Below are positions 35,269-55,477 of a DNA stretch of 64,000 nt, one piece after another. This DNA is from Pedobacter nototheniae (GTDB taxonomy: Bacteria > Bacteroidota > Bacteroidia > Sphingobacteriales > Sphingobacteriaceae). The notes beneath the pieces are model-generated. The model did no database searches and was not told the origin of the DNA. It worked only from the letters and a program-made list of their open reading frames with translations. The stretch covers positions 124,001-188,000 of the forward strand of contig NZ_RQRS01000001.1 in assembly GCF_004335085.1 (NCBI RefSeq). The letters are read 5' to 3'. Positions within the stretch are counted from its first letter, which is position 1; every line of letters starts with the position of its first letter. A program made the translations under genes and the position numbers.

Positions 35269-35685
35269 ATGAATAGTGTATTAAGAAAGAAGTTAAAAGC
35301 ATACACACTAACTGAAATTTTGGTGGTTTTAGTGATAATAGGGATTTTGGTGCTTTTGGCGCTCCCCAATCTAATGCCTTTAATTACAAAAGCTAAAACT
35401 ACTGAGGCTAAATTGCAACTTGAGCATTTATCTAAATTAGAGCAATCTTATTTTTATGAGCATTCTAAGTATACAACTGATATGAATGAACTTGGCTTTA
35501 TTCAGGAGAAACTTTCTTCTGACGGAAAAGATGGAAAAGCGAATTATAAAATCGAAGTAGTTTCAGCAACAAATAATACTTTTACGGCTAAAGCTACGGC
35601 GGTTTCAGATTTTAATGGAAACGGAGTTTTCAATGTTTGGCAAATAGATCAAGACAAAAATTTAAAAGAAATTACTCCCGATTAA
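35269..35685 (+). CDS. Major pseudopilin, GspG-like
   Basis: 138 residues. The class III signal is short and basic (MNSVLRKKLKA), followed by YTLTEILVVLVIIGILVLLA with the Glu at +5 of the mature protein. Cleavage is expected between Ala11 and Tyr12; Ala instead of Gly at -1 is unusual. The C-terminal part has FNGNGVFNVWQIDQD, similar to the Ca-binding/conserved end of GspG. First gene of the locus; its stop overlaps the ATG of the peptidase gene. Confidence 0.82.
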   Translation: MNSVLRKKLKAYTLTEILVVLVIIGILVLLALPNLMPLITKAKTTEAKLQLEHLSKLEQSYFYEHSKYTTDMNELGFIQEKLSSDGKDGKANYKIEVVSATNNTFTAKATAVSDFNGNGVFNVWQIDQDKNLKEITPD

Positions 35686-36197
35686 TGTTGTTTTTAAAAA
35701 TATCAATTATCCTGGTTTTAGCTTTCATTTCTTTTCAAGATTTTAAAGATAGAGCTGTTTATTGGTTTCTTTTTCCAATATTAATAGTCCTTTTCATTTC
35801 GGAAAAGATAGCGCTCCTTAACTATCGTATAGTTTTTACTGACGCTTTTATATTAACAGGTTTTTTGCTTGTTCAACTTTTTTTTCTTTGGCTCTATTTC
35901 ACCATTAAAGCAAAACGAGCGGTTAACATCACAAATGATCTTTTAGGATGGGGAGATATTCTATTTTTATTTGTAACCTGCTTTTATTTTTCTCCCGTTA
36001 GTTATATTGCTTTTTATATTCTTACTTTAATCATCTCTATTTTCTTCGCATTTTTATGTAGGTTTATATATAAAAATGTTGAAGTAACCATCCCACTTGC
36101 CGGCATACAATCATTGCTTTTAATCGTCATTTTATTAACTGGAGGCTTACTAAAGCTAAACTTTCAATTTGATGAATGGATTAAGTATTTAATTTAA
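35685..36197 (+). CDS. Prepilin peptidase, A24 family (GspO/PilD-like, short form)
   Basis: 170 residues from the ATG at 35685, overlapping the pilin stop (TAATG). It is a polytopic membrane protein. The two catalytic aspartates of GxGD proteases are Asp19 (FQDFKDRAVYW) and Asp91 in LGWGDILFL. It lacks the N-terminal methyltransferase/Cys domain of PilD, as in TadV/FlaK-like short forms. It would process the four pilin-like proteins of this locus. Confidence 0.82.
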   Translation: MLFLKISIILVLAFISFQDFKDRAVYWFLFPILIVLFISEKIALLNYRIVFTDAFILTGFLLVQLFFLWLYFTIKAKRAVNITNDLLGWGDILFLFVTCFYFSPVSYIAFYILTLIISIFFAFLCRFIYKNVEVTIPLAGIQSLLLIVILLTGGLLKLNFQFDEWIKYLI

Positions 36198-36225
36198 ATT
36201 AAAGAAGAAATAACTAATAGAGGGG

Positions 36226-37656
36226 ATGGAAATTAAGTCTAAAATAGAACCGGAAATTATTCACATGGTAAGCAAAGACTTGGCTTGGAGTTATCATGTT
36301 GTACCTTTTAATGCGGATTCGGAATCTTTAAGCTTCTATTGTGTTGAAGATAAAGAAAAAGAGCTGTTTGATGAACTTGAAATTATTTTTGGAAAAAAAA
36401 TAATTCTTGAAGGTTTGCCATTGCAAGATGTAGAACGGCTTCTATCCATTCATTATTATTCAGAAAATAGTAAAGTTAAAAATAATACACAGGCAGAAGT
36501 TATTGCCGCAAATGATGATTTTTTATCCCAGTTAATTGCAGAAGCAAGGCAACTTAAAAGTAGTGATATACATATCGAATCTTATGAAAATAAGTGTCGT
36601 GTAAGGGTTAGGATAGATGGGATGATGGTAGAACGTTATCAAATTAGAAAGGAAGATTACCCTGCATTAATTAACAAAATTAAAATCATGGCTAATCTGG
36701 ATATCGCTGAGAAACGTTTACCTCAGGATGGCAGGATTAATTATAAAGCAGCAGGCTTATCATCTTTTGATATAAGAGTTTCAGTATTGCCAACTTTACA
36801 TGGCGAAAAAATAGTACTCCGTTTGCTTAATAATAGCAGCACCGATATAGATTTGAATACATTGGGGTTATCCAAAACGGATATGGAACATTATATGCAG
36901 GGCGTTCAGCGGCCAAATGGAATCATATTGATAAGTGGGCCAACAGGTTCAGGAAAAACAACAACTCTCTATGCCACTTTAAAATTATTAAATAAATCTA
37001 CTCGTAATATTTTAACGATTGAAGATCCGATTGAATATACATTAGAAGGTATAAACCAAGTGCAATTAAAGGAAAGTATAGGCCTGGGCTTTGCTTCAGC
37101 ATTGCGTACTTTTTTAAGACAAGATCCTGATGTAATCATGGTAGGAGAGATTCGTGATCCTGAAACGGCAAATATGGCAATTAGGGCTGCCCTTACTGGG
37201 CACCTTGTACTTTCAACAATCCATACCAACTCTGCTTGGGGTACAGTTTCCAGGTTAATGGATATGGGAATACCCGGGTTCTTAGTTGCCAATACTTTAA
37301 ACACAACTGTTGCACAGAGGTTATTACGTTTATTGTGCCCCAATTGCAAGGAAGAAGTAGATTTTGATTCAGCAAGTTATCCCAAGCAATTTAAGCCTCC
37401 TTTTACTGTATCTAAGCATCACATTGCGAAAGGTTGCACGGAATGTTTTTTTACCGGCTACAAAGGACGAAAAGCTGTATATGAAGTTATACCCGTTGAT
37501 GCAGAACTTGCTTTTGAAATTAAACAGGGCAATATGTCTGTAGAAACACAACTAAAATCAAGAAACATTAAAACACTTTCAGAAAACGCATTTAATCTTT
37601 TTATGATGGGTGAAACCACATTAGAAGAAATATTTCCATTATTGTTATCTATCTAA
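36226..37656 (+). CDS. GspE/PilB-type assembly ATPase
   Basis: 476 residues. Walker A is GPTGSGKT at 238-245. The Asp and His boxes follow (LTIEDPIEYTLEG; ALTGHLVLSTIHTN), and Walker B lies in DPDVIMVGEIRDPE. The C-terminal zinc site has Cys371/Cys374 and Cys404/Cys407, as in GspE/PilB but not PilT. It powers pseudopilus assembly from the cytoplasm. Its stop is immediately followed by the secretin ATG. Confidence 0.92.
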   Translation: MEIKSKIEPEIIHMVSKDLAWSYHVVPFNADSESLSFYCVEDKEKELFDELEIIFGKKIILEGLPLQDVERLLSIHYYSENSKVKNNTQAEVIAANDDFLSQLIAEARQLKSSDIHIESYENKCRVRVRIDGMMVERYQIRKEDYPALINKIKIMANLDIAEKRLPQDGRINYKAAGLSSFDIRVSVLPTLHGEKIVLRLLNNSSTDIDLNTLGLSKTDMEHYMQGVQRPNGIILISGPTGSGKTTTLYATLKLLNKSTRNILTIEDPIEYTLEGINQVQLKESIGLGFASALRTFLRQDPDVIMVGEIRDPETANMAIRAALTGHLVLSTIHTNSAWGTVSRLMDMGIPGFLVANTLNTTVAQRLLRLLCPNCKEEVDFDSASYPKQFKPPFTVSKHHIAKGCTECFFTGYKGRKAVYEVIPVDAELAFEIKQGNMSVETQLKSRNIKTLSENAFNLFMMGETTLEEIFPLLLSI

Positions 37657-39615
37657 ATGAAAAATAGAATTGCCATTTTATTCGCCGCACTCCTTTGTAT
37701 ATTTATTGTTCAGGTTAATTCTGCATTTGCTCAATATCCAAATAGCGCAGAACGATTGAAAGTAATTGAGGAAAGATTAAGGAATCTTTCTGTAATGGTT
37801 CCAGGACTAAACCAAAAAGTAGAATTATCCATGGCTGGAGCTTCTGCTCAAGAATTTTTAAGAGCATTGGCCCAATCGAGTAATCTAAATATTAATGTAG
37901 ATCCACTGATTAACTTTAAAGTTTATTCAAATTTTAAAGGCGAAACAGCACTAAATGTGCTTCTATTTATTTCTAAAGAATACGATTTGGATATAAATTT
38001 AATTGGGTCTATAATGTCTATTACAAAAGCTATTTCTCCGCGAGCCCCAGTGCCAGTGAAAGATATTAAAGTTAATTATATATCTGCTTCTGATAATTTA
38101 GGATTCGAATTAAATGGAGATTCTCTAAGCTTGGTAGCAAAAAAAATAAGTCAACTTTCGCAAAAGAATGTTGTTGTTCCAGTTGCATTACTTGGAAAGA
38201 AAGTGACTGCCTTTATTGCTGCAGCTCCTTTTGAATCAGCATTAGAAAAATTAGCATTCGCCAATGAGCTTAAACTAAATAAGACGAATGATAATGTCTA
38301 TATTTTTCAACCTTTAGAAGAAGGAGAAGAACTTTATATTAATGGTGAAAATACAACTGCTGTAAAAAGATCTAACAAACTAATGGGTGCCTCTGGTGGA
38401 TCATCTGTCGGGCAATCGGGAGGTTTTAATATTAGCAGTAGTAGAGATTCTAAAGGGAATAAAAGTATTAATGTTGATGCATTAAATACCCCAATTATTG
38501 ACCTGATTAAGTCAGCATCAATAGAGGCTGGTGTTAATTATTTCATTTATTCTGATATTAGGGGCGCTGTAACTACTCATTTAAAAAGCATTACATACGA
38601 TAGTTTTTTAACTGCATTATTTCAAGGATCAGACTTTACTTATAAGAAAGATAACGATGTTTATTTGATAGGAGATAGAAGGCTGGAAGGTTTGCGAGCC
38701 AATAGAATTGTTAAACTTCAGCACAGATCTATTGATACCGTTCAGGTAATGATCCCTTCTGAATGGAAAAAAGGTATTGAGATTAAAGAATTTCGTGAGC
38801 AAAACACGTTGCTTCTCTCAGGCTCAGCTCCACAAATAGAGGAAATAGAAAATTATATTCGTCAAATAGATAAAGTAATTCCAATGATTATGATTGAAGT
38901 TACTTTGGTGGATATTAGAAAAGGTAAAAGTGTTAAAACTGGGATAACAGCAGGAGTTTCTGATACCATTAAAACTGGCGGAACAATACTACCAGGAATT
39001 GATTATACATTTGGTTCTGGGTCTATTAACCGTTTATTATCTAAGCTTGGAAGTAACAATTCCATCAATTTAGGTAGAGTTACACCTAATTTTTATGTTA
39101 AACTTAATGCATTAGAAAATAATAGCAATGTAGAAATTAGGTCTGTCCCGAAATTGGCAACCTTAAACGGTCATAAAGCAAATTTAAGTATCGGAAGTTC
39201 CAGATATTATAGTCAGCGAACGCAAAATGTTATTCCCTCATTGAATGCGCAAACTGTAGTTACAGAGCAATTTACGGAAGTTAATGCAAATCTTGAAATT
39301 GAGATCAAACCTATTGTGTCAGGCGATGACCAGGTGACATTGAATATTGGGGTTAATATCTCTGATTTTATTGGAAACCCACCAGCTAATTCACCGCCAC
39401 CAAAATCTACAAGTAAGTTTACCTCCATTATTCGGGCTAAAAACGAAGATATGATTGTGCTAGGAGGCTTGGAACGCACTGAAAGTAGTGAATCCGGATC
39501 TGGCGTACCAATACTATCCAGAATCCCAATTTTGAAATGGTTATTTAGTAGTCGCGAAAAATCTAATAACAAAGTAGTAACACTCGTATTTATCAAACCA
39601 ATAATTATGTATTAG
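37657..39615 (+). CDS. GspD/PilQ-type secretin
   Basis: 652 residues. Sec signal peptide (FAALLCIFIVQVNSAFAQ), N-terminal STN/N0-like region (SMAGASAQEFLRALAQSSNL), repeated N domains, then the secretin core with MIMIEVTLVDIRKG, ENNSNVEIRSVPKLATLNG, and the terminal LGGLERTESSESGSGVPILS. It forms the outer-membrane channel. It directly follows gspE and is followed by the PilM/N-like gene after 1 nt. Confidence 0.9.
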   Translation: MKNRIAILFAALLCIFIVQVNSAFAQYPNSAERLKVIEERLRNLSVMVPGLNQKVELSMAGASAQEFLRALAQSSNLNINVDPLINFKVYSNFKGETALNVLLFISKEYDLDINLIGSIMSITKAISPRAPVPVKDIKVNYISASDNLGFELNGDSLSLVAKKISQLSQKNVVVPVALLGKKVTAFIAAAPFESALEKLAFANELKLNKTNDNVYIFQPLEEGEELYINGENTTAVKRSNKLMGASGGSSVGQSGGFNISSSRDSKGNKSINVDALNTPIIDLIKSASIEAGVNYFIYSDIRGAVTTHLKSITYDSFLTALFQGSDFTYKKDNDVYLIGDRRLEGLRANRIVKLQHRSIDTVQVMIPSEWKKGIEIKEFREQNTLLLSGSAPQIEEIENYIRQIDKVIPMIMIEVTLVDIRKGKSVKTGITAGVSDTIKTGGTILPGIDYTFGSGSINRLLSKLGSNNSINLGRVTPNFYVKLNALENNSNVEIRSVPKLATLNGHKANLSIGSSRYYSQRTQNVIPSLNAQTVVTEQFTEVNANLEIEIKPIVSGDDQVTLNIGVNISDFIGNPPANSPPPKSTSKFTSIIRAKNEDMIVLGGLERTESSESGSGVPILSRIPILKWLFSSREKSNNKVVTLVFIKPIIMY

Positions 39616-39616
39616 T

Positions 39617-40810
39617 ATGGTATCTGCGATAACAAATAACTGTATTGGGGTAGAACTTAAACTGATTTCAGAAGGAGAATACAGTTGCAGATTTTGCTTA
39701 GTAAACAGGTTACAAAACAGCTTGGATATTAGTTCGAAAAAAATTGTTAAAGGATCCTTAGCCACAGTTATAGAATCTTTACCAAAAAATTTCCCCATCG
39801 CCTTATGTTTAACTGGGAAGGGGTTGTTAAATAAAATAATAAATGAAGATGGTATCCAAGATGACGAAAATAGTTTAAAAACTGCATTTCCAGGTATTGA
39901 TTCAAAAGTATTTTACAAACAGATCTACCAGGAAAGTGCCTTGAAATTTTTTAGTATTGTTAGGCATTCTGTAGTCGATCCATTATTAGAAACATTTGAA
40001 AGGGCAGGTATAAAAATACTACAGCTTACACTCGGTCCCGTTGTAACTATTCAAATATGGAAGCAATTGAATATATATGGCCAAGAAATACGTTTTGATG
40101 GGCACTTGTTTATCTTATCCGACGAGAAAAAATTATCTGCTTATCAATACATTCCAAATAATAAAAATGAATTTTCAATTAAATTAGGACAAGAGTCAAT
40201 AGAAGAAGAATATATTGTTGCTTACGCTACAGCTTTTCAATTGATTTTACATAATCAGGTTGATGTAATAGAGGCAAATGTTAATAAAATTAAGAAAGAC
40301 TTTACGAAGCAGATTGAAAACTTTCGTCTAAAAAAGCAAGGTTTGGCTTTTATATTTTCTCTTTTTATTCTTCTACTATTAAGTTTTGGCATTTTTTCTT
40401 ACTATAACACAGATAACGAACGGTTAAGCAAGTTAGTTGGGAGTAATATAACTTTTAAGGACAACGTTGAACAGCTTAATCAGCAAATTTCTGAAAATGA
40501 GGTTTTATTAAAAAAAATTGGCTGGAATGGAGGATATAATTATGGCTTTTTACTGAACGAATTGGGTAAAAGCATGCCTAAACAGTTGGTTTTAACTACT
40601 ATTTCAATGAATGATTTTAAAACCGATGAAGAAAAATCAGCTTTGCAAACCAACATTAAAATTATGGGTAGCACAGATAATTTATCTGCCGTAAACAACT
40701 GGATTTTTTTATTGAAAGAAAAAAGCTGGATAAAATCAATTAAACTTTTGAAATACAATCAGCAGGAAGATAGTGATCTTTATCAATTTGATATATTATT
40801 AACGTATTAG
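39617..40810 (+). CDS. PilM/PilN- or GspL-like inner-membrane assembly protein
   Basis: 397 residues. A cytoplasmic N-terminal ~240 residues resembles the PilM/GspL actin-like domain in layout. One transmembrane helix follows (GLAFIFSLFILLLLSFGIFS), then a coiled coil (LNQQISENEVLL) and a periplasmic ferredoxin-like domain (NELGKSMPKQLVLTTISMN, the typical PilN opening). It therefore looks like PilM and PilN joined in one chain, as in GspL. It would link the ATPase to the periplasmic part. Confidence 0.72.
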   Translation: MVSAITNNCIGVELKLISEGEYSCRFCLVNRLQNSLDISSKKIVKGSLATVIESLPKNFPIALCLTGKGLLNKIINEDGIQDDENSLKTAFPGIDSKVFYKQIYQESALKFFSIVRHSVVDPLLETFERAGIKILQLTLGPVVTIQIWKQLNIYGQEIRFDGHLFILSDEKKLSAYQYIPNNKNEFSIKLGQESIEEEYIVAYATAFQLILHNQVDVIEANVNKIKKDFTKQIENFRLKKQGLAFIFSLFILLLLSFGIFSYYNTDNERLSKLVGSNITFKDNVEQLNQQISENEVLLKKIGWNGGYNYGFLLNELGKSMPKQLVLTTISMNDFKTDEEKSALQTNIKIMGSTDNLSAVNNWIFLLKEKSWIKSIKLLKYNQQEDSDLYQFDILLTY

Positions 40811-40811
40811 G

Positions 40812-41363
40812 ATGTTTGATAAACTTGATTATAGAAAGAAACAGATAGCACTTGCCTTTTCAGTTTTGCTATTACTTTATATTGCTTATCAATGCTCATT
40901 TAAAAATGCATTAGAGGCTTTTAGATTAAATAAGCAGCTAAGTAAAGAAAATATAAGTGCTTTAAGTGGAGAAGCAGGACAGCCCCAACTGGAAAGAAAA
41001 AGTGAGTTTTATTTAAAAGTTGTTAAAAGCTATAAAGTTAAAGGTGAAGACCATGAAAATTATCTCTGGCAGAGCCTTTCAGGAATGGCAATGGCTTGTC
41101 AGGTAAAGATTAGTTTTAACCAGGATACTCAAGCTAAGCAAGATACAACTGCCAATGTAGTATTGAAAAAGGTATTCTCTAATGAATTTAGTTTTACGGG
41201 GAACTATTTCAATCTAGTTAGATTGGCTGATACTTTAAGTAAAAGTACTGGGATTGGTAAAATTGCAAAACTTAAAATACACTTGAAAAAAAGTGATGGA
41301 ACTACTGCCAATAAAAATCAACCACTTATAATGGATTTAGCTTTGAAAGGCTTAATACAATAA
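40812..41363 (+). CDS. PilO/GspM-like protein
   Basis: 183 residues: a short cytoplasmic start, one transmembrane segment (IALAFSVLLLLYIAYQC), then a periplasmic part with a beta-alpha-beta fold and the conserved ending KGLIQ. It starts 1 nt after the PilM/N-like gene. Sequence similarity to PilO is weak; position and architecture carry the call. Confidence 0.65.
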   Translation: MFDKLDYRKKQIALAFSVLLLLYIAYQCSFKNALEAFRLNKQLSKENISALSGEAGQPQLERKSEFYLKVVKSYKVKGEDHENYLWQSLSGMAMACQVKISFNQDTQAKQDTTANVVLKKVFSNEFSFTGNYFNLVRLADTLSKSTGIGKIAKLKIHLKKSDGTTANKNQPLIMDLALKGLIQ

Positions 41364-41407
41364 TTTGAAAAGTTATTACCTATCTAAATAAATAATTACA
41401 TGCATTT

Positions 41408-42346
41408 ATGAAAAAATACCTCTTTTTAATCATTTTAAGTTCTTTCTTACTTTCTTGTAAAGAATTTATTGAACCGAGTCTTGAGCATCAAACAATTTCC
41501 CTGCTCGCTCCTCAAGATAAATTGGAAAGTAACAGTTATAACCAGATTTTTTGGTGGAATTTACATGAGGATGCTCTTAAATATCGTTTACAAATTGTTT
41601 CTCCAAAATTTGATGGCATTCAAAAACTTATATTGGATACACTTATTAAAAAGGATAAGTTTGCCTATACATTAGATCCTGGCATATATGAGTGGAGAGT
41701 ACGTGCAGAAAACGGAAGTAGTCATACAGAATATGTATCCCGCTCTTTAACAATTTATTATGCTGCTTTAAAAGATCAGGAACTACAGGTAAGCAAGCCA
41801 GCAAATGATTTATATACAAATAGCCCAACTTTGCCATTTGAATGGCTTAAACTATTTGGAGCAACTAGATATAGAATCCAAATTGACAATAACAATTTTG
41901 CTGATGAAAATAATCTGGTATTAAATGCAACTACTGATAATCTTCTATATAATTACACACAGATTAAAGATGGTAAATTTCAAGCGAGAGTAAGGGCCGA
42001 AAATGCGACAGAAAACTCGAAATGGTCTACGGTTAAATCATTTACCTATGATACAAGTCCACCAGCAAAAGTTACACTTTCAGCTCCAGCCAACGGTCAA
42101 ACAGTTTCCAAACCTGTTAAATTAACATGGATAGCCATAACCGATGCTGTAAAATATGAGGTAACTGCTTACAAAGACAATTCTACAATAGTATTTAGTA
42201 AAAGCTTTCCTGTTATAGTAAATACAAACAGTTATACATTTAATGAAGGCGTAAGTGGAGATAAAATAAGCTGGTCAGTAAAGGCTATAGATCAAGCAGG
42301 GAATATTGGAGCGGTAAGCGATTTATTTAGTTTTACGATTCAATAA
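41408..42346 (+). CDS. Lipoprotein with three FN3-like domains
   Basis: 312 residues. The lipobox is LLSCK (Cys17). Three fibronectin type III-like repeats each open with LxAP/SxPA and have W and Y core residues (IFWWNLHEDALKYRLQIV; LPFEWLKLFGATRYRIQI; LTWIAITDAVKYEV). It probably sits on the outer-membrane or periplasmic face near the secretin and may act as a pilotin-like or scaffold component, an inference from its place in the locus. Confidence 0.65.
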   Translation: MKKYLFLIILSSFLLSCKEFIEPSLEHQTISLLAPQDKLESNSYNQIFWWNLHEDALKYRLQIVSPKFDGIQKLILDTLIKKDKFAYTLDPGIYEWRVRAENGSSHTEYVSRSLTIYYAALKDQELQVSKPANDLYTNSPTLPFEWLKLFGATRYRIQIDNNNFADENNLVLNATTDNLLYNYTQIKDGKFQARVRAENATENSKWSTVKSFTYDTSPPAKVTLSAPANGQTVSKPVKLTWIAITDAVKYEVTAYKDNSTIVFSKSFPVIVNTNSYTFNEGVSGDKISWSVKAIDQAGNIGAVSDLFSFTIQ

Positions 42347-42348
42347 AA

Positions 42349-42849
42349 ATGAAAAATAAGAAGTTTACTTATTTGTTAATTGTATGCGTTTGTGCATTAT
42401 GGGGTGTCATTTTTTATCAAATTTATTTGAGATTAAATAATAATGACGAGGATATAATTATAACTCAAAAAGTAAAGAAAGCTGCCTACTTTAATATTCC
42501 AGATCACTCTAAGGAACAATTAAGTTTAAACTTTGATTACAGAGATCCCTTTTCCGATACGGAAAATAAAACGGCTCCTACAATACAATCTAAAGGCATT
42601 TCTATTGAAAATAAATTTCTTGCCACCCAACCAATAATTAAGCCACAAGTAAACTGGCAGGGCATTTTATATACGGGATATATCAAAAATCCATCAACCA
42701 AGAAAAAAATAGTTTTGATGCAACTTAACGGAAAACAAATTATGCTGGCTGAAGGGCAAATAGTGGATGGTTTAAAATTGCTTAAATATGCTGGTGATTC
42801 GGTTAAAGTACAATATCAAAATTCAACTAAGTTTATTATTTTAAAATAG
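42349..42849 (+). CDS. GspC/PilP-like inner-membrane protein
   Basis: 166 residues. An N-terminal transmembrane anchor (FTYLLIVCVCALWGVIFYQI) is followed by a flexible stretch with RDPF, a PilP-like mark, and a small beta domain (VNWQGILYTGYIKNPST, ... GQIVDGLKLLKYAGD) similar to the GspC homology region that binds the secretin. It follows the FN3 lipoprotein by 2 nt. Confidence 0.65.
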   Translation: MKNKKFTYLLIVCVCALWGVIFYQIYLRLNNNDEDIIITQKVKKAAYFNIPDHSKEQLSLNFDYRDPFSDTENKTAPTIQSKGISIENKFLATQPIIKPQVNWQGILYTGYIKNPSTKKKIVLMQLNGKQIMLAEGQIVDGLKLLKYAGDSVKVQYQNSTKFIILK

Positions 42850-42852
42850 AAT

Positions 42853-43476
42853 ATGCGGTTAAATATCATGTTAACATTGCCATTCATTTTGGCGTCGATA
42901 TCTGTTTCAGCACAAAAAGATAAGTATCATTTGGGTATGGAAAGTTATGAGCATACAGTAACCTTACCCGAAGAAAAAATTACTTTACATGTAGTAGAAG
43001 ATAATCAACTGAGGAGTTATACCGATTTAAATAAAACCTATTATTGGTATAGCAATAACCAAATAAAGACAACCCAAGGTGGTTTTAGCGGCAAATTATT
43101 AGACGGGCGCTTTAGCAGATTCTATTTAAATAAAAATTTAAAAGAACTGGGTGAATTTAATGCTGGTTTAAAAACAGGAACATGGAAGAATTGGGCAGAT
43201 AATGGAACCTTGCTAAAGGTAGTCTCCTATAAAAAGGGAACACCAAACGGAAAATTTTTCAATTATAAAGAGTCTGGTGCGCTGGCTGAAGAAGGAAAAT
43301 ACAAAGAAGGAAAAATAAATGGTTTATTTAAAAAATATATTAATCCAGATAGCGTGCAGATTTTGAAGTACAAAAATGGAATAATTGTAAATCAGCAACC
43401 TAGTAAAATAAGTAAATGGTTGAATGGTATTTTTCATAAAAAAATTAAAACAAAACCATCGAATAAACCTAAATAA
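42853..43476 (+). CDS. Secreted MORN/YwqK-like repeat protein
   Basis: 207 residues with a signal peptide (LPFILASISVSAQ). The middle has the repeated pattern N-G-x-x-x-G-x-W/F (LKTGTWKNWADNGTLLKVVS, GTPNGKFFNYKESGALAEEG), which resembles MORN-type repeats of YwqK-like proteins. A basic tail follows. It ends 9 nt before the first fibre gene, linking the machine genes to the fibre array. Function unknown. Confidence 0.6.
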   Translation: MRLNIMLTLPFILASISVSAQKDKYHLGMESYEHTVTLPEEKITLHVVEDNQLRSYTDLNKTYYWYSNNQIKTTQGGFSGKLLDGRFSRFYLNKNLKELGEFNAGLKTGTWKNWADNGTLLKVVSYKKGTPNGKFFNYKESGALAEEGKYKEGKINGLFKKYINPDSVQILKYKNGIIVNQQPSKISKWLNGIFHKKIKTKPSNKPK

Positions 43477-44226: not shown

Positions 44227-44234
44227 AACCAGCC

Positions 44235-45227: not shown

Positions 45228-45234
45228 CCTAGAT

Positions 45235-46299: not shown

Positions 46300-47294
46300 A
46301 AAACTATCTAATTACAGCTCTTTTAGCATTTATGCTAATCAATCCATCTTTTGCATTCACAAAAGTTGAGAAGGTAAATAAAATACCATTATTTACCACT
46401 AATGAATATGAAACGTCTGTCACTTTCCCTGCAGGATATGCAATAGGTGATTATATCGAATTTGTCCGCGTTGATCCATATTCTGCAGGAGCTTCAGGAT
46501 ATTATAATATTTCAATATCTTACACAAGAGGTAACATAGCGGCAGCGGCAACCCATGTAGCAGCAATTTCACATGCGAATTCATCGCTTTGGCGCGAAAC
46601 GGGGCGTATTAACGACAATCAATATGTTGATAGATACCGTAACTTTACAATAGATTGTAACGGAGATTATTATGGTGGTACACCTCGGTTTCGGGTAAGG
46701 GCGGTGAATACATACGGAGTTTCAGAACCAATTACTGTTTATATAAAAGTAACATCCATTAACTTTAACGGTACATTCACGCCTTTAAGTACTACAGGAA
46801 ATGATTTAACGGTAACTAAGCTACAGCCCATGACTAATGAATGGGATTTATTTGTTGGTAATTTATACAGCACCGATGGCGCATCAATAGCTATAAAAGT
46901 CTTATCTAATGGTAATGTAGGCATCGGCACAACTACTCCAAAAGAAAAGCTCTCTGTAAATGGCAACATTCGCGCTAAAGAAGTTAAAGTAGAAACCAAA
47001 GACTGGCCTGATTATGTTTTCAAAAAAGATTATCCTTTATTAAGCTTGGAAGCAACCGAAAAGCATATTAAAGAGAAAGGATACTTACCCGGCATGCCAT
47101 CGGCAAAAGAAGTTGAACTTAATGGATTGGAGCTTGGTGAAATGAATAAACGCTTATTGCAAAAGGTTGAAGAACTGACCTTGCATTTGATTGCTGAAAA
47201 GAGATATTCCAACCAAGCAATCAACAAATTAAATGCTAAACTATCTGAACAAAATATACGTCTTAAAAGCTTGGAAAGAAAAAATAAACATTAG
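46296..47294 (+). CDS. Fibre paralogue 4
   Basis: 332 residues. Signal peptide (LLAFMLINPSFAFT). The ~190-residue head is a beta-rich domain of its own (AGYAIGDYIEFVRVDPYSAG ...). It is followed by GNVGIGTTTPKEKLSVNGNI and a type B C-terminal module with a different coiled coil (LLQKVEELTLHLIAEKR). The 4-nt overlap with paralogue 3 shows co-translation. Confidence 0.75.
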   Translation: MKNYLITALLAFMLINPSFAFTKVEKVNKIPLFTTNEYETSVTFPAGYAIGDYIEFVRVDPYSAGASGYYNISISYTRGNIAAAATHVAAISHANSSLWRETGRINDNQYVDRYRNFTIDCNGDYYGGTPRFRVRAVNTYGVSEPITVYIKVTSINFNGTFTPLSTTGNDLTVTKLQPMTNEWDLFVGNLYSTDGASIAIKVLSNGNVGIGTTTPKEKLSVNGNIRAKEVKVETKDWPDYVFKKDYPLLSLEATEKHIKEKGYLPGMPSAKEVELNGLELGEMNKRLLQKVEELTLHLIAEKRYSNQAINKLNAKLSEQNIRLKSLERKNKH

Positions 47295-47316
47295 TTCATA
47301 TTTTAATACAAACAAA

Positions 47317-48258
47317 ATGAAGTTTCAATATCGTATTTTATTACTCATTTTTTTATCTCTAAAAGTACTTTATGGATACTCTCAAACTGCAGAACAGCTT
47401 ACTGTGAGTGATACCAGAAGCTCAAATGAGCTACCTGGAAACTATAATCAAATTGCCCGATTCGATTTTAAGTTTAAATCAGTTGTAGGTATTCTGGGTG
47501 ATGGTTATTCAACAATGTTAACCATAGCACCTTGGTATGATGCTTCAGGAGGAGAAAATCATCAACTTAACTTTAGTAATAGCGGTATTTTGTACAGAAC
47601 AGGATGGCATGGAAATGAAAACTGGAACGCATGGAAAAAATTAGTGCTCGCTAATATAAATGGATCTATTCAGGCTGATGGTGGTGGAGCAGGATTACAA
47701 TTGAGACCAGCAGCAGCAGATCATGCTTATATAGAGTTTTATGCCCGGAGCATTAACCCAACTGCGAGGTCTGGATGGTTTGGATATGGAGGGCCAGGTA
47801 CCAATAATTTATGGGTTGAGAATGAATTAGAAGGAGGGAATATTAGTATTCTCACCAATAAGGGATACATAGGTATAGATACTCAAACACCAAAAGAGAA
47901 GCTTTCCGTAAATGGCAACATTCGCGCTAAAGAAGTTAAAGTAGAAGCAACAGGCTGGCCAGATTATGTTTTTGCTAAGAATTATGTATTACCAACGCTT
48001 ACCGAAACTGAAAAATACATTAATGAAAAAGGGCATTTACCGGGGATGCCATCTGCAAAAGAAGTTGAAAGCAATGGCTTAGCTATGAGTGAGATGTTTA
48101 AACTACAACAGCAAAAGATAGAAGAATTAACTATTTACCTTATAGAGAGTAAAAAGGAAGCAATACAGTTTAAAAGTGCACTAAAAGAATTGGACGATCA
48201 AAATAAAGCGCTTGAAAGAAAGGTTCTGAATATGCAGCATAAAAAATCAAAAAAATGA
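47317..48258 (+). CDS. Fibre paralogue 5, pyocin-knob-like head
   Basis: 313 residues from the ATG at 47317. The open frame begins further upstream inside paralogue 4, but MKFQYRILLLIFLSLKVLYG is the signal peptide. The head (LPGNYNQIARFDFKFKSVVG ... GWHGNENWNAWKKLVLAN) resembles the pyocin-knob receptor-binding fold. Next are IGIDTQTPKEKLSVNGNIRA and a type C C-terminal module (YVLPTLTETEKYINEKG). The 4-nt overlap with paralogue 6 indicates one transcript. Confidence 0.72.
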   Translation: MKFQYRILLLIFLSLKVLYGYSQTAEQLTVSDTRSSNELPGNYNQIARFDFKFKSVVGILGDGYSTMLTIAPWYDASGGENHQLNFSNSGILYRTGWHGNENWNAWKKLVLANINGSIQADGGGAGLQLRPAAADHAYIEFYARSINPTARSGWFGYGGPGTNNLWVENELEGGNISILTNKGYIGIDTQTPKEKLSVNGNIRAKEVKVEATGWPDYVFAKNYVLPTLTETEKYINEKGHLPGMPSAKEVESNGLAMSEMFKLQQQKIEELTIYLIESKKEAIQFKSALKELDDQNKALERKVLNMQHKKSKK

Positions 48259-49178
48259 GATTTAAAAAGATATTAATACTACTTGGCTTTGTTTTACTTA
48301 AATTGGTTGCAATAGCTCAAACAGATATTGGTAATCAGAGTTTAACAAAATTATCTGTTTTCGAATATTACAATCATACCACGCCAGAATGGATTAAGCT
48401 TTTTAGGATTAAAAATTATGATAATACGATGGGTTTTTGGGGTAAAGGGGGTGCTACTGGCCGTTTATATTTTGTCGATTATCAGGGTAATGGTGGATCT
48501 TATATCGATTTCAGCTTCCCTCAATCCATTAATAGTAACCTTAAACCCATATTGATATTAAATGGAGCATCAGCAGATAAAATAGAATGGTATGCTTTCT
48601 CTGGAAATGATGGCCCAGGGCAAAATTATTATGATGTTTATATTAAAACGCCGGAATATCACCTTGGACTTACATTTTTAATCAGAGGGGGAGATTATAA
48701 GCCTTATTTTACAGCCGATAGCCAACCTGCAACTCAGGCAATATGGAATTATCAGCTCTCTCCTCAATCCTTTAATTATTATAGTGGTAATGGTAATGTA
48801 GGTATTGGTACAATAACACCAAAAGAAAAACTCTCTGTAAATGGAAACATTCGCGCTAAAGAAGTTAAAGTAGAAGCAACAGGCTGGCCAGATTATGTTT
48901 TTGCTAAGAACTATGTATTGCCAACCCTAGCAGAAACTGAAAAATATATTAAAGAAAAGGGATACTTACCCGGGATGCCTTCTGCTATGGAAGTTGAAAG
49001 CAATGGCTTAGCTATGAGTGAGATGTTTAAACTGCAGCAGAAAAAGATAGAAGAATTAACTATTTACTTAATTGATAAAGAAAAGCAGATAAATAATCAA
49101 AAAAGTAAGATTGAAATGTTGGAAAAGGATTTCAAAGATTTAAAGAGGATGTTAAACGAATACTTAGGTGAAAAATAG
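48255..49178 (+). CDS. Fibre paralogue 6
   Basis: 307 residues. Signal peptide (ILLGFVLLKLVAIAQ) and a unique head (LTKLSVFEYYNHTTPEWIKL ... TFLIRGGDYKPYF). Next are GNVGIGTITPKEKLSVNGNI and a type C C-terminal module close to paralogue 5 (YVLPTLAETEKYIKEKG, AMSEMFKLQQKKIEEL). The DNA from the KEKLSVNG block onward is nearly the same as in paralogue 5. Confidence 0.75.
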   Translation: MRFKKILILLGFVLLKLVAIAQTDIGNQSLTKLSVFEYYNHTTPEWIKLFRIKNYDNTMGFWGKGGATGRLYFVDYQGNGGSYIDFSFPQSINSNLKPILILNGASADKIEWYAFSGNDGPGQNYYDVYIKTPEYHLGLTFLIRGGDYKPYFTADSQPATQAIWNYQLSPQSFNYYSGNGNVGIGTITPKEKLSVNGNIRAKEVKVEATGWPDYVFAKNYVLPTLAETEKYIKEKGYLPGMPSAMEVESNGLAMSEMFKLQQKKIEELTIYLIDKEKQINNQKSKIEMLEKDFKDLKRMLNEYLGEK

Positions 49179-49180
49179 AC

Positions 49181-50125
49181 ATGAAAAAACTACTTTATAT
49201 TTTAATTTTTGTCTGTATTGCAAAGAAAAATTTTGGACAGGAATTTCCAAAAACCATTTTTCTGGATGAAAGTACATTAATCAAAGAAACACAAACTACC
49301 ATGGTTAATGATGTTACAGCCAATAAAAGCAGTTGCATGTTCCGGTCTTCAGGTAGTTATCAAAACACTATGTGGTGGGGGCCATATTTTCATGTTGCTG
49401 CAGGAAATTACCTGGTACAATTCAGGTTAAAAGTAGCATCAAATGCCTCTTCAAATGATATTTTATCATTAGACATCGTTGGCTCATCTGGTGGTTTCGT
49501 TTATAAAAGAGTTTCACTAAAGCCCAATATGTTTAAAACAAATAACGAGTGGCAATTAATTACAATCTCGCTTAGCTTACCCGAAAATGAGAGCGCGGTA
49601 GAGATTAGGGGAATTAATTTTCAACCTGGCTTAACTGATTTGTACTTTGATTATGTGCAACTTGTACCAAATGATAATGTTGGTTTATTAACGGATGAAT
49701 TAACATTGGCAGGTAATGGCAATGTAGGCATCGGTACAACTACTCCAAAAGAAAAGCTCTCTGTAAATGGCAACATTCGCGCTAAAGAAGTTAAGGTAGA
49801 AACTACAGGATGGCCTGATTATGTATTTAAGAGTGATTATGTATTGCCAACCCTAGCAGAAACTGAAAAATACATTAATGAAAAGGGATACTTACCCGGA
49901 ATGCCATCGGCAAAAGAAGTTGAACTTAATGGATTGGAGCTTGGTGAAATGAATAAACGCTTATTGCAAAAGGTTGAAGAACTGACATTGCATTTGATTG
50001 AGAAGGATAAAGAGTTAAGCAAAGAAAAGGAAATGAATAAAGTTCAAAACGAAAGACTGCAAACGATAGAAGCATTGTTAAAGAAAATAATCGAGAAAAA
50101 TAATAACCATCATGAAAAAAATTAA
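49181..50125 (+). CDS. Fibre paralogue 7, CBM-like head
   Basis: 314 residues. Signal peptide (LLYILIFVCIAKKNFG). The head has the layout of a carbohydrate-binding beta-sandwich (YFHVAAGNYLVQFRLKVASN ... LTDLYFDYVQLVP). Next comes GNVGIGTTTPKEKLSVNGNI. The C-terminal module is a hybrid: a type C start (YVLPTLAETEKYINEKG) and a type B end (SAKEVELNGLELGEMNKRLL). It overlaps paralogue 8 by 14 nt. Confidence 0.73.
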   Translation: MKKLLYILIFVCIAKKNFGQEFPKTIFLDESTLIKETQTTMVNDVTANKSSCMFRSSGSYQNTMWWGPYFHVAAGNYLVQFRLKVASNASSNDILSLDIVGSSGGFVYKRVSLKPNMFKTNNEWQLITISLSLPENESAVEIRGINFQPGLTDLYFDYVQLVPNDNVGLLTDELTLAGNGNVGIGTTTPKEKLSVNGNIRAKEVKVETTGWPDYVFKSDYVLPTLAETEKYINEKGYLPGMPSAKEVELNGLELGEMNKRLLQKVEELTLHLIEKDKELSKEKEMNKVQNERLQTIEALLKKIIEKNNNHHEKN

Positions 50126-50759
50126 ACTCTTATTAGCCTTCTCGCTATTGGCTGGCCCAGTGGCTATGGCGCAAAACACCTTTCCAAATAGTGGTAATGT
50201 AGGCATTGGAACATTAAACCCGTCTTCGCAACTACAGGTTCAAGGAACAACAAACTATGCTTGGTTAACTCATTTTAGCAATACCGAAGCCAATGGTCAC
50301 AATATGTATTTTGGTTATGGCAATTCGAATACAACCAATTACGGCTTATTGATTACGGGCGGAAGGAACCTGCCTGGACAATTGGATTTTGGAGTAGAAA
50401 ATAAGTTCTATGTAATGGGCGATGGCAACGTCCTCATCGGCAAAACCTCCCAAACCAACCCCGCTTACAAACTCGATATTAACGGCAAAGCCCGCGCCAA
50501 CGAAATTGTGGTCAACACCACCGGAGCCGATTTTGTATTCGAAAACAATTATGAATTACGCCCATTAACCGAAATAGAAACCTTTGTAAAGCAAAACAAG
50601 CACCTGCCCGAAATCCCAACAGCCAAAACCATGCAAGAAGAAGGCGTAGGTGTAAGCGAATTGCAAACCAAACTTTTGCAAAAAGTAGAAGAACTGACTT
50701 TGTACATCATCCAACAACAAAAAGAGATTGATGAGTTGAAGAAGAAGTTGAATAAGTAG
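50112..50759 (+). CDS. Fibre paralogue 8, diverged last member
   Basis: 215 residues, the shortest. The signal peptide resembles that of paralogue 3 (LLLAFSLLAGPVAMAQ). The C-terminal module is distinct (YELRPLTEIETFVKQNKHLP, EIPTAKTMQEEGVGVSELQT). From about 50430 the DNA is visibly richer in C and G than its neighbours, so the 3' part may have a different origin. It closes the array; a 650-bp gap follows. Confidence 0.75.
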   Translation: MKKIKLLLAFSLLAGPVAMAQNTFPNSGNVGIGTLNPSSQLQVQGTTNYAWLTHFSNTEANGHNMYFGYGNSNTTNYGLLITGGRNLPGQLDFGVENKFYVMGDGNVLIGKTSQTNPAYKLDINGKARANEIVVNTTGADFVFENNYELRPLTEIETFVKQNKHLPEIPTAKTMQEEGVGVSELQTKLLQKVEELTLYIIQQQKEIDELKKKLNK

Positions 50760-51412: not shown

Positions 51413-51643
51413 ATGAATGTAAAATTTGTTTATTTACTATGGCATACTCATGTTGATGAAGAATTGCTTGGTGGTGAGGATATTAAATTGATTGGTATTT
51501 ATAGCACTGAAAATAAAGCAATGGCTGCACAGTCACGAGCTGAATTATTGGATGGATTTAAAGATTCTAAAGAAGGTTTTGAGATTTCTTGTAGTAAAAT
51601 CGATAATGATGAATGGATTTCAGGATTTATAACTGAAAAATAA
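51413..51643 (+). CDS. Small DUF7336-like protein
   Basis: 76 residues. VYLLWHTHVDEELLGGEDIK, then LIGIYSTENKAMAAQSRAEL and WISGFITEK, match the short DUF7336 pattern (YLL.H.........K.iGvYs...A..A......F). Function unknown. It has its own terminator directly downstream and appears to be an independent unit between the fibre array and the pseudopilins. Confidence 0.6.
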   Translation: MNVKFVYLLWHTHVDEELLGGEDIKLIGIYSTENKAMAAQSRAELLDGFKDSKEGFEISCSKIDNDEWISGFITEK

Positions 51644-51686: not shown

Positions 51687-52058
51687 GTAACAGTCGCAAT
51701 TGACTTGGTAACGTTCGTATATGACTTGGTAACGGTCTGGAACGACTTGGTAACAGTCTGGAATGACTTGGTAACGGTCGGGAATGACTTGGTAACGGTC
51801 ACAATTGACTTGGTAACGGTCACAATTGACTTGGTAACAGTCGCAATTGACTTGGTAGCGGTCGCAATTGACATGGTAGCGGTCGCAATTGACTTGGTAA
51901 CGGTCGGGATTGACTTGGTAACGTTCGTATATGACTTGGTAACGGTCGCAATTGACTTGGTAACGGTCGCAATTGACTTGGTAACGGTCGGGATTGACTT
52001 GGTAACAGTCGCAATTGACTTGGTAACGGTCGGGATTGACTTGGTAATCTTCTCTTGG
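51687..52058. repeat. Minisatellite: 17 tandem 21-bp units plus a partial unit
   Basis: Seventeen consecutive 21-bp units (consensus GTAACGGTCGCAATTGACTTG) run from 51687 to 52043, and a broken copy follows. Units fall into variants with CGCAATT, CACAATT, CGGGATT, TGGAA and TTCGTAT middles. Some are repeated in the same order, which points to block duplication. Because 21 is divisible by 3, open frames run through on both strands (heptads LVTVAID or TKSIATV). These are not convincing genes: no good start, extreme low complexity, and frames open both ways. Confidence 0.9.
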
Positions 52059-52241: not shown

Positions 52242-53480
52242 ATGAAGCTCAAAGCAGGCGCCTTATATTTCTCAATTGTAATTGCATTTTTTATTGCAAT
52301 TATAAGTGCTTCATTAATTATGTTAGCTGCACACTATCGTTCTGCTCATTTGAAAGAGGTAAGGTATCAACGGTTGCAGAATAATTTAAATTCTGGTATA
52401 GATTTTTTACTTGCTGATGTAACGGATGTCGACTTATCAAAAAACGTCGATTTATTTAATGATAATCTAGATAGTGTAGAAATAAGCAAAAAAAAATGGG
52501 GCTTATACGATCTTTCTACTGTAAAAGCATTTACAAATAAAGATACACTGAGCCGGGTTTTCCTTGTTGGTTTAAATACCTCCAAGGATAGAAAGGTTTT
52601 ATATCTTGCTGATGAAGATAGACCGCTTTCTATAAGTGGTGAAACAAGAATTACAGGTGATGCAGAAATACCAAAATCAGGTATAAAACAATCTTATGCA
52701 GAAGGTAAGCCCTATACAGGCGATCAATTATTATATGGAAAGAAAAGCGATAGTGGAAGAAAGCTTAAAGAACTAGAAAATAAAAGGCTTAAATATTTAG
52801 AAGCATATTTTGACAATACCACCAAGAAATATCCAATATTGGGTGGTGCAGATTTACATAACGGTTTTAAAAATTCAACAAAAATATTTACAGTGCCTCC
52901 GGGAGCAGTATTAAATTCAAGTTTGAGCGGCAATATTATTTTGGTATCAGATTCTTCAATTATTATTTCAGCGAATGCGAAATTAGATAATATTCAAATA
53001 TTTGCACACACGGTAACTTTTGAGTCTGGCTTTAGAGGAAATTGTCAGGTTTTTGCCAGTGATTCTATCTTGGTTAAAAATGATGTAAAATTAAATTATC
53101 CTTCGGTTTTAGGTGTAATACGAAAAAAAGGCTCGGCCGATCAACCAAATATAACGTCAGGTGAAAATTTTGAAATGAATGGAATATTATTTAGCTATGA
53201 ACAAGTTCGTAGCTCCATGCAAACCATAATTTCATTGGGCAAAAAAGCAAAACTTAATGGCGAAGTATATGCTACAGGCTTAGTTAAATTAGACAAGGGT
53301 GTGGTTATATCAGGAAAAGTTTCTGCTAATAGATTTATTATGACAACACCTACATCACTATATGAAAATTTTTTAATTGATGTTACTTTTAACCGTAAAG
53401 CAAGAAGTAAATATTATTTAAGTTCGGCTTTATTTTCTGGTAATGAAAAAAACAACAAAATTTTAAAGTGGTTAAATTAA
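52242..53480 (+). CDS. PilX/GspK-like pilus protein with beta-helix-like domain
   Basis: 412 residues. An N-terminal hydrophobic helix after a short basic start (MKLKAGALYFSIVIAFFIAI) has pilin-like or anchor character but no Glu+5. The middle is a long beta-rich region with repeated short strands (SSLSGNIILVSDSSIIISAN, KNDVKLNYPSVLGVI, KAKLNGEVYATGLVKLDKGV), like a polymer-forming/bactofilin-type solenoid. It sits with the minor pseudopilins and may form the pseudopilus tip. Confidence 0.6.
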   Translation: MKLKAGALYFSIVIAFFIAIISASLIMLAAHYRSAHLKEVRYQRLQNNLNSGIDFLLADVTDVDLSKNVDLFNDNLDSVEISKKKWGLYDLSTVKAFTNKDTLSRVFLVGLNTSKDRKVLYLADEDRPLSISGETRITGDAEIPKSGIKQSYAEGKPYTGDQLLYGKKSDSGRKLKELENKRLKYLEAYFDNTTKKYPILGGADLHNGFKNSTKIFTVPPGAVLNSSLSGNIILVSDSSIIISANAKLDNIQIFAHTVTFESGFRGNCQVFASDSILVKNDVKLNYPSVLGVIRKKGSADQPNITSGENFEMNGILFSYEQVRSSMQTIISLGKKAKLNGEVYATGLVKLDKGVVISGKVSANRFIMTTPTSLYENFLIDVTFNRKARSKYYLSSALFSGNEKNNKILKWLN

Positions 53481-53487: not shown

Positions 53488-53868
53488 ATGTTTTATAAAA
53501 AGGAGTATTTTAAATTAAAAAAGATTAAGCCAAAAAGTTTAGCCGCCTCTACTCTAGTAGAAGTATTAATAGCTATGGTTATTATTATGGTTGTTTTTAC
53601 CACTGCAATTCAAATTTTTAATAACGTACTATATAGTGGCGTATCGATAAAAAAAATACAAGTAGAACAACAATTAAACATTCTGACAAATTCCGTTAAA
53701 CAAAAAGGGTATCAGTATCAAAATGAACTTATTGTAGATAGTGTGGTATATAGTTTTAATATTGATAGTACACGTTTATCTGGATTAACCACAATGGAGA
53801 TTACTGGTAAACTAAATAATAAGATACTCGGGCGGACCCGGTTTATTTACAAAAATGATGAGCAATAG
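53488..53868 (+). CDS. Minor pseudopilin (GspI/GspH-like)
   Basis: 126 residues. A class III signal with a long basic leader (MFYKKEYFKLKKIKPKSLAA) is followed by STLVEVLIAMVIIMVVFTTA with Glu at +5. The soluble head is short. Ala precedes the expected cleavage site, as in the major pseudopilin here, suggesting the peptidase of this locus accepts Ala at -1. It overlaps the next gene by 14 nt. Confidence 0.78.
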   Translation: MFYKKEYFKLKKIKPKSLAASTLVEVLIAMVIIMVVFTTAIQIFNNVLYSGVSIKKIQVEQQLNILTNSVKQKGYQYQNELIVDSVVYSFNIDSTRLSGLTTMEITGKLNNKILGRTRFIYKNDEQ

Positions 53869-54334
53869 GCTAAAGGCATTTACCCTTATGGAAGTAACTG
53901 TAGCAATGTTGCTATCGGCAATTTGTATTACAATATGTTTTACTGCCTATGGTTTAATTCAGGATTACTATTCTAAATTTAGAATAAAGAATGAAACATC
54001 GGCTCAGTTAACCGATTTAAAACTGGTGATGGACAAGGATTTTTTAAAATCCAGATATGTAATCAAAACAGATGAAGGGCTTAAGCTTAAAAATGACAGC
54101 ACAGAGCTTAGTTATACGTTTGATGAACATAAAATTTTAAGAATAGTTCCAGGTCTGCATACCGATACATTTTTTGTTGAACTTAAAGATAAAGAGTTCT
54201 ATTTTGAAGGAAAATCTGCTGGAGTTGCAGATACCGTCGATTTTCTAAATTTAGGAATTAAGCTAAAAGGCTCAAGTACTGCGCTAAATTTACAAATTAG
54301 TAAGAATTATAGTGCCGTTGATTTATTTAAATAA
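53855..54334 (+). CDS. Minor pseudopilin (GspJ-like)
   Basis: 159 residues (start ATG at 53855 or 53858). The leader MMSNRLKA precedes FTLMEVTVAMLLSAICITIC with Glu+5. The soluble domain is about 120 residues. As in the other two pilins, Ala is at -1. It overlaps the previous gene, so both are made together and probably form the tip complex with the 412-residue protein. Confidence 0.8.
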   Translation: MMSNRLKAFTLMEVTVAMLLSAICITICFTAYGLIQDYYSKFRIKNETSAQLTDLKLVMDKDFLKSRYVIKTDEGLKLKNDSTELSYTFDEHKILRIVPGLHTDTFFVELKDKEFYFEGKSAGVADTVDFLNLGIKLKGSSTALNLQISKNYSAVDLFK

Positions 54335-54337
54335 TTT

Positions 54338-55477
54338 ATGCCATCAATAGATATTTCAGGATATAAGCAGAAGCCCAAAAAGATAAACCATTCATCTAAA
54401 AATGGATTATTGGAATTATTAAACAAGGATATTTCTTTTGGTAGTAGCCAGTTATCAGACAAAAAGAAAGAGGCATTTTATAATGAATTAGGTACTTTAA
54501 CTAGATCTGGGATAGATATTAAAACGGCTTTAGAGCTAACCTGCAGTTCTTATACTCAAGCAAAGGACTTAGAATTGTTTAAGAAATTACAAGCAGAGGT
54601 TGTTTCTGGTAAATCTCTTTCTGATGCCTTGAAGAATGAAAACAAATTTAGTAGCTATGAATATTTTAGTGTAAGCATTGGTGAAGAGACTGGTAGATTA
54701 GGTGAGGTACTTGGAGAGCTGGCTAAATATTATAAAAGTAAAATTACGCAACGAAGAAAAATTATAGGCGCAATTACATATCCGATTTTGGTGTTAAGTA
54801 CATCCCTTGCCGCTATCTTTTTTATGATCAAATTTGTTGTGCCAATGTTTGCTGATATATTTAAGCGTTTTGGGGGTAAACTGCCATATATTACCGCGTT
54901 AATTGTGAGTTTTTCTGATTGGTTGGATCGATATATATACCTCATTTTGTTTATTATAATTGGTGTATTAGTTTTTTATTTTATTAGTCGTAATAAACCC
55001 TGGTTTCAAAGGCTTTCAGCATTTATGGTACTTAAAATACCTGTAGTTGGAGAAATTGTGAAAAAGGTATATCTGGCTCGTTTTGCAAATACAATGAGAT
55101 TGCTAACAGGTACCAATATTCCCTTATTAAGTGCATTAGGAATGGTTAAACAAATGATTGTTTTCCACCCAATTGTAGATTCACTAAATGTAGCCGAAAA
55201 TGATATTCTACATGGTATGAGTTTGTCAGACTCACTTGCCAAGCATGAATTTTATCCTGTTAAATTTGTACAAATGATCCGGATAGCCGAAGAAGTAAAT
55301 AAACTTGAGTATTTTTTTGAACAGCTATCTACTCAATATACAGAAGAGGTGGAATATAAAACTAATGCTATTAGTGGCTTGTTAGAACCATTGATTATTA
55401 TTTTTCTCGGTCTGGCAGTTGGTGTTATTCTAATTGCAATGTATCTGCCGATGTTTCAAATGAGTAATAGTTTTTAA
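54338..55477 (+). CDS. GspF/PilC-type inner-membrane platform protein
   Basis: 379 residues. Two GspF repeats: FYNELGTLTRSGIDIKTALE, then YFSVSIGEETGRLGEVLGEL, and FANTMRLLTGTNIPLLSALG, then FVQMIRIAEEVNKLEYFFEQ. Three transmembrane segments lie near 155-175, 205-225 and the C-terminus (IIIFLGLAVGVILIAMYLPM). It anchors GspE and completes the machine whose other core genes lie 11-19 kb upstream. Confidence 0.9.
   Translation: MPSIDISGYKQKPKKINHSSKNGLLELLNKDISFGSSQLSDKKKEAFYNELGTLTRSGIDIKTALELTCSSYTQAKDLELFKKLQAEVVSGKSLSDALKNENKFSSYEYFSVSIGEETGRLGEVLGELAKYYKSKITQRRKIIGAITYPILVLSTSLAAIFFMIKFVVPMFADIFKRFGGKLPYITALIVSFSDWLDRYIYLILFIIIGVLVFYFISRNKPWFQRLSAFMVLKIPVVGEIVKKVYLARFANTMRLLTGTNIPLLSALGMVKQMIVFHPIVDSLNVAENDILHGMSLSDSLAKHEFYPVKFVQMIRIAEEVNKLEYFFEQLSTQYTEEVEYKTNAISGLLEPLIIIFLGLAVGVILIAMYLPMFQMSNSF

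Follow-up and report, generated by a model that had tools for sequence, protein, structure and literature searches.

A window of 64,000 nucleotides from the genome of Pedobacter nototheniae (contig NZ_RQRS01000001.1, positions 124,001 to 188,000) carries, at positions 35269-55477, a complete gene set resembling those of type II secretion systems (T2SS) and type IV pili (T4P). Within this set lies an array of eight genes for fibres similar to the mosaic adhesive trimers (MAT) of Bdellovibrio, while gspF, the last machine gene, is followed by two RHS-type genes, designated R1 and R2, of which R2 contains a DUF6443 domain and which together have the predicted architecture of a polymorphic toxin. 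Machine, fibres and RHS pair recur together in many related bacteria, which makes the fibres and RHS proteins the best candidate substrates of the machine. That the machine and this jointly encoded candidate cargo, i.e., MAT-like fibres and a two-protein RHS toxin, are also linked by export through the machine and by joint action is, in our estimation, evenly balanced. No description of this triad was found in the literature searched, nor any account of fibres together with a T2SS in Pedobacter.

The machine and its gene set

The machine genes are arranged in two blocks, the first being G-O-E-D-L-M (35269-41363) and the second comprising the genes for an Ig-like lipoprotein, C and a MORN-like protein, followed by K-I-J-F, with the fibre array (43486-50759) situated within this second block. 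The individual machine genes are as follows:

35269..35685, +, G-like major pseudopilin (Pfam N_methyl 1e-5, ComP_DUS 1e-7)
35679..36197, +, O-like prepilin peptidase (likely start 35679, the reading frame opening with TTG at 35637; without Pfam match; always between G and E in the loci)
36226..37656, +, E, assembly/secretion ATPase (T2SSE 2e-125)
37657..39615, +, D, secretin (Secretin 5e-35, STN, Secretin_N)
39617..40810, +, L, PilM/PilN-like inner-membrane protein (PilN 2.5e-6)
40812..41363, +, M, PilO-like protein (position, conservation in relatives)
41408..42346, +, lipoprotein with Ig-like repeats, beside C (weak Ig/Y_Y_Y matches; lipobox LLSC; conserved order Ig-C-MORN)
42349..42849, +, C/PilP-like protein (position, conservation; without Pfam match)
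42853..43476, +, MORN-like exported protein (MORN_2 5e-6; conserved)
52242..53480, +, K/PilX-like minor pilin with predicted beta-solenoid tip (AlphaFold model, pLDDT 85; PDB matches)
53488..53868, +, I-like minor pseudopilin (weak N_methyl match, below curated cut-off)
53855..54334, +, J-like minor pseudopilin (N_methyl 3e-4, weak, below curated cut-off)
54338..55477, +, F, inner-membrane platform protein (T2SSF 2e-43)

The genes from 35269 to 50759 lie on a single strand with inter-gene gaps of at most 44 nt, and may be co-transcribed. An initial annotation of the window had named the pseudopilin, peptidase, GspE, GspD, PilM/N-, PilO-, GspC- and GspK/PilX-like genes, the minor pseudopilins and GspF, all of which are located where it had placed them, on the plus strand; it had left out the Ig-like lipoprotein gene (41408) and the MORN-like exported gene (42853). 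Its placement of the fibre array between the two gene sets also holds, except that 1,482 nt separate the array from gspK, while the end it had assigned to the cluster, 55477, is too early, as the cluster runs on to 63611 with the RHS pair.

No domain match was found for the peptidase (35637/35679), PilO-like (40812) and GspC-like (42349) genes, while the K-like gene (52242) returned merely weak bactofilin/ice-binding domain signals. The order of these four genes is kept in relatives despite this lack of a clear domain match, and C, M, O and K were assigned from position and structure only. The predicted model of K consists of a 57-residue N-terminal helix of the pilin type and a beta-solenoid, and its best PDB matches include ice-binding solenoids and the Thermus pilin ComZ.

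The locus probably encodes a Bacteroidota T2SS-like machine that is related to type IV pili. All canonical T2SS components, i.e., E, F, D, G, minor pseudopilins and equivalents of L, M and C, are present within one locus, although the curated cut-offs for GspE, GspD and GspF are not reached (485 of 630, 121 of 351 and 237 of 424 bits, respectively), the machine scoring under the curated cut-offs both for T2SS and for T4P. A genome-wide search at E<=1e-3 returned no second, PilT-like ATPase of the GspE family, and a type IVa pilus with retraction was rejected, E being the sole ATPase of its family in the genome. The gene set and order agree with the published table for Cytophaga and P. heparinus (order compared, PMC5553014). 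The putative T2SSs of Cytophaga hutchinsonii, Pedobacter heparinus and Flavobacterium have the same components (PMC5553014; PMC6668835), and genes 1100-1112 of P. heparinus specify G, E, D, platform, minor pseudopilins and F in an order comparable to that of the locus described here. In the published accounts of these putative T2SS loci, neither a fibre array nor an RHS pair is named as belonging to the locus. In the analysis of Denise et al. (2019), the Bacteroidetes ‘T2SS’ branches with the type IVa pili, and a separate origin of this system as a secretion system was raised (PMC6668835).

Co-occurrence of machine, fibres and RHS pair

Genomes in which GspE was found were counted as machine-positive, which applied to 31 of 151 genomes of the family and left 120 as machine-negative; all co-occurrence and distance figures below are among the matches listed, and the tests treat genomes as independent, such that the p-values are to be read as indications only. 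Fibres were present in 24/31 machine-positive versus 14/120 machine-negative genomes (p=2e-12), and RHS proteins with DUF6443 in 30/31 versus 20/120 (p=3e-17). Inside the genus, the corresponding figures are 8/10 versus 2/14 for fibres and 10/10 versus 6/14 for DUF6443. Furthermore, gspE or gspF is no more than 40 kb away in 26 of 57 fibre clusters and in 42 of 128 RHS clusters, whereas the expected numbers are 1.8 and 4.0, respectively (~3% in either case). The RHS association extends to other families of the class, where DUF6443 occurs in 38/59 machine-positive versus 47/318 machine-negative genomes (p=2e-14), and where 14 of the 50 DUF6443 matches listed, in 14 genomes, lie within 40 kb of gspE. 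The recurrent co-localisation which the initial annotation had put forward as a check is therefore found, far above chance, and supports its proposal that the machine handles the fibres, while the RHS pair, linked to the machine no less strongly than the fibres are, had been missed.

At the level of individual loci, fibre genes, RHS genes or both were found in the stretch read around GspE in 26 of 30 annotated regions. Fibre genes occupy no fewer than seven machine junctions (at least M/Ig, MORN/K, Ig/C, E/D, before G, after M and after F), which speaks for the link with the machine, and in L035 MORN-K is uninterrupted, with the RHS pair after F, from which the array of the window is most simply explained as an insertion at the MORN/K junction. 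Five draft contigs (L017, L022, L023, L024 and L027) end in the cargo region after gspM, as would be expected if near-identical fibre and RHS repeats break short-read assemblies, and the association with the machine may be underestimated because of such broken drafts. The largest array seen, with ~17 further consecutive fibre genes, is located upstream of the machine in one genome (G038:C16, L066 with L025).

Fibres and RHS genes are also associated with each other. Among 79 named fibre loci, mostly of Bacteroidota, 18 have at least three machine genes within 10 kb, 40 have a member of the RHS pair, and 45 have machine genes or RHS; for arrays of at least three fibres, machine genes or an RHS pair member are nearby in 27 of 32. 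A same-strand fibre gene is found 5' of R1 in 24/53 cases and R2 follows R1 in 33/49, the fibre-R1-R2 runs showing short gaps. Fibre, R1 and R2 can thus be regarded as an independent unit, which is often, though not always, located at the machine.

It might be proposed that fibres are the sole cargo of the machine and serve as surface adhesins, for example in attachment to polysaccharides, with the RHS pair being a passenger that is spread along with the locus or leaving by another route. The fibre genes do lie within machine operons, the majority of DUF6443 clusters are located away from the machine, and machine mutants of Cytophaga, which have a cellulose phenotype, adhere poorly to cellulose (PMC5553014). 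We nevertheless consider this proposal unlikely, as DUF6443 tracks the machine more tightly than the fibres do (30/31 versus 24/31 genomes), and as three machine loci without fibres (L018, L029 and L035) keep R1-R2.

Another proposal would be that the locus is an insertion hot spot, at which fibre and RHS cassettes gather because recombination is easy or transcription is shared, without being substrates of the machine. The order and number of cargo genes vary strongly, fibre arrays recombine, and the fibre-R1-R2 unit also occurs without a machine, all of which would suit a hot spot. However, the insertions preserve the strand and reading order of the machine, 143 of 158 fibre genes being on the machine's strand, and machine-negative genomes are mostly devoid of cargo altogether, which a mere hot spot would not predict; a low probability is accordingly assigned to this proposal as well.

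Several observations weigh against a strict link between machine and cargo. Seven of the 15 fibre copies and five of the six DUF6443 proteins of the P. nototheniae genome lie away from the locus, and this genome has a further array, of four fibre genes in tandem (L047, G000:C73:160827-164173), with no machine or RHS genes within 20 kb. The initial annotation had regarded fibre genes located mostly elsewhere as speaking against its reading, an objection that is answered in part: eight of the 15 copies are at the locus, yet some genomes with fibre arrays lack such a secretin. Ten fibre-positive, machine-negative genomes are also without it, and one secretin-free Pedobacter genome (G078, L051-L053, C1:262000-321700) possesses fibre arrays together with an R1 of 2140 aa and an R2 of 3047 aa. 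The 850-, 366-, 138- and 263-residue partners neighbouring the G078 fibres matched no family above cut-off, and the fibres read in three secretin-free genomes have a greater median length, 449 residues as compared with 305. The G078-type arrangement is perhaps a machine-independent variant: either secretin-free variants rely on a different exporter, or they can do without the machine because it is dispensable. In addition, the Cytophaga phenotype indicates that this group of machines can have other roles (PMC5553014), and location is not export.

Properties of the fibres and the RHS pair

The fibre array comprises eight MAT-like fibre genes (43486..50759, +), identified by a profile match to Bd2133, the fold match of f1 and mosaic identities:

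43486-44226, +, f1
44235-45227, +, f2
45235-46299, +, f3
46296-47294, +, f4
47317-48258, +, f5
48255-49178, +, f6
49181-50125, +, f7
50112-50759, +, f8

The eight paralogues and their Sec export, as proposed by the initial annotation, are borne out: the genes overlap by 4-14 nt or are separated by gaps of 2-22 nt, provided that f5 starts at 47317, and a Sec-type signal peptide was read by eye at the start of each. The C-terminal ~100 residues of f1-f8 show pairwise identities of 39-86% (median 68%), while the N-terminal parts have a median identity of 23%, which equals background, with the exception of f1 and f3 at 94%. The DNA of f1 and f3 is 86% identical over 628 nt, with the 3' end of f1 being nearest to f2 and that of f3 nearest to f4, a mosaic that points to exchange between genes of the array.

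When a profile was built from 37 fibres, it matched Bd2133 (E=6e-17), a Bdellovibrio fibre of solved structure, along with relatives of this protein. The predicted model of f1 has a mean pLDDT of 80, with a C-terminal domain above 90 that ends in a 41-residue helix, and its 14 best PDB matches (Foldseek) are all MAT fibres; the TM-scores are low, which is to be expected when a trimeric fold is modelled as a monomer. MATs are surface fibres of Bdellovibrio with swapped tips (PMC10769870), and the fibres described here share with them the GIGT...NG shaft motif, predicted secretion and a multitude of paralogues exchanging adhesive parts, the matches by profile and by fold being significant. In contrast to MATs, which carry a variable C-terminal tip on a constant N-terminal base, these fibres have the reverse polarity, their C-terminus being constant; they are also short, possess a C-terminal helical domain of their own, and are linked to a secretin machine. 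This C-terminal domain matched no known family in Pfam, NCBIfam or PHROGs, and a Pfam scan of the 37 fibres revealed no recurrent lectin or adhesin head domain; one of the 37 has a match (E=1e-5) to Shufflon_N, the invariant portion of a pilus-tip protein that undergoes recombination.

A prophage or tail-fibre island was rejected, as PHROG matches cover chiefly the GNVGIGT shaft motif and as the whole domain is covered in just 3 of 80 IMG/VR matches. Close fibre relatives outside Bacteroidota were seen in metagenome-assembled genomes labelled Neomarinimicrobiota, Opitutales and Chromatiaceae (L102, L144 and L145), which reflects either horizontal spread or binning error.

The genes downstream of gspF are the following:

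56071..59930, +, R1, first RHS-type gene, in two reading frames (56071-56697 and 56853-59930; both pieces match intact relatives)
59937..63611, +, R2, DUF6443, RHS core and variable tail (DUF6443 6e-34, RHS_repeat, Rhs_assc_core; profile match to solved RHS)
63624..64000, cut by the window end, +, small membrane-protein open reading frame (ORF) 13 nt after R2, an immunity candidate by position

Intact R1 proteins of relatives have ~1100 aa, and the frame break in R1 fits either decay of the gene or an error in sequencing. R1 resembles RHS repeats at its C-terminal end, and the profile of R2 has matches among solved RHS proteins, Tse5 and YenC2 being two of them. Among 42 R2 tails, only the NNPxxxDPxG core is common to all, the tails being otherwise unrelated, with matches to Peptidase_M91, Ntox35, lipase and phospholipase A2-like domains; neither the window's own R2 tail nor the small ORF behind it has a Pfam match. 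A small same-strand ORF is present within about 30 nt downstream of nearly every R2. By a crude test, 39/51 R1 and 35/40 R2 proteins have signal-peptide-like starts, as do most fibre proteins.

An RHS core, unrelated tails and a small following gene constitute the architecture predicted for polymorphic toxins, and these features, together with toxin domains in tails and the presence of two adjacent proteins, are shared with the Rhs/YD toxins, including those of type VI secretion systems (T6SS; Tse5) and of the Tc type (B/C; YenC2). Unlike T6SS Rhs effectors and Tc toxins, the present pair has Sec signal peptides, no PAAR/VgrG context and no A subunit, and is distinguished by its DUF6443 family; a T6SS Rhs effector was rejected, as no PAAR domain was detected in the R1/R2 proteins scanned and signal-peptide-like starts are present. 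The TANFOR toxins of Bacteroidetes are likewise large proteins with toxin tails and immunity genes, but have a different N-terminal domain and are linked to substrates of the type IX secretion system (T9SS), whereas the RHS proteins here are linked to a secretin machine (PMC7073777). No literature on DUF6443 was found.

Two further features occupy the 1,482 nt between array and gspK:

51413..51643, +, small DUF7336 ORF (Pfam DUF7336 2e-7)
51687..52047, no strand assigned, 21-bp tandem repeat, 17 copies (GTAACGGTCGCAATTGACTTG; TRF)

The DUF7336 ORF is possibly the orphaned small partner of an RHS toxin gene once inserted there and since lost, and the repeat is open in one frame as DLVTVAI repeats.

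Proposed mechanism and its implications

Location and co-occurrence favour export of both the fibres and the RHS proteins by the machine. The fibres and RHS proteins would reach the periplasm by Sec and fold there, the fibres probably as trimers, with the RHS pair enclosing the toxin tail in a cage. The ATPase E and the platform F would assemble a pseudopilus that carries the beta-solenoid protein K close to its tip and that would then push the folded proteins out through secretin D. The variable N-terminal heads of the fibres, on their conserved C-terminal base, may bind target surfaces, the RHS pair would poison bound neighbours, and the gene after R2 would protect the producer. This joint action of fibre and toxin on neighbouring cells is a weaker suggestion still than export.

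The T9SS, a widespread two-step system of the phylum, might be suggested as the export route instead, and an enrichment of T9SS substrates has been reported for the gene neighbourhoods of TANFOR toxins (PMC7073777). This route is regarded as highly improbable: a Por-type C-terminal sorting domain is absent from the 37 fibres and the R1/R2 proteins scanned, on which grounds T9SS export by such a domain was rejected, and the presence of cargo tracks the T2SS-like machine. A machine that moves folded periplasmic proteins suits a trimeric fibre and an RHS cage, neither of which has a T9SS sorting domain, and for this reason export of both by the T2SS-like machine is preferred.

A more far-reaching proposal, which we put forward tentatively and regard as rather doubtful, is that the locus specifies a T4P-derived secretion system which differs from the classical T2SS and is dedicated to a two-chain RHS toxin guided by fibres. 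The target would be selected by the mosaic fibres, and the caged toxin would be released or delivered beside it. Such a system would be the secretin-based equivalent of Rhs toxin delivery by the T6SS, with fibre and toxin modules exchanged as cassettes.

One knock-out study connected the Bacteroidota T2SS-like machine with the use of cellulose, and a phylogenetic survey suggested that it may be a secretion system of a separate kind; the fibres and toxins of this locus of a soil Pedobacter are testable candidates for its substrates. The same loci join three questions, i.e., which substrates the machine has, how Sec-exported RHS toxins without a T6SS adaptor leave the cell, and how MAT-type fibres get to the surface and are anchored there.
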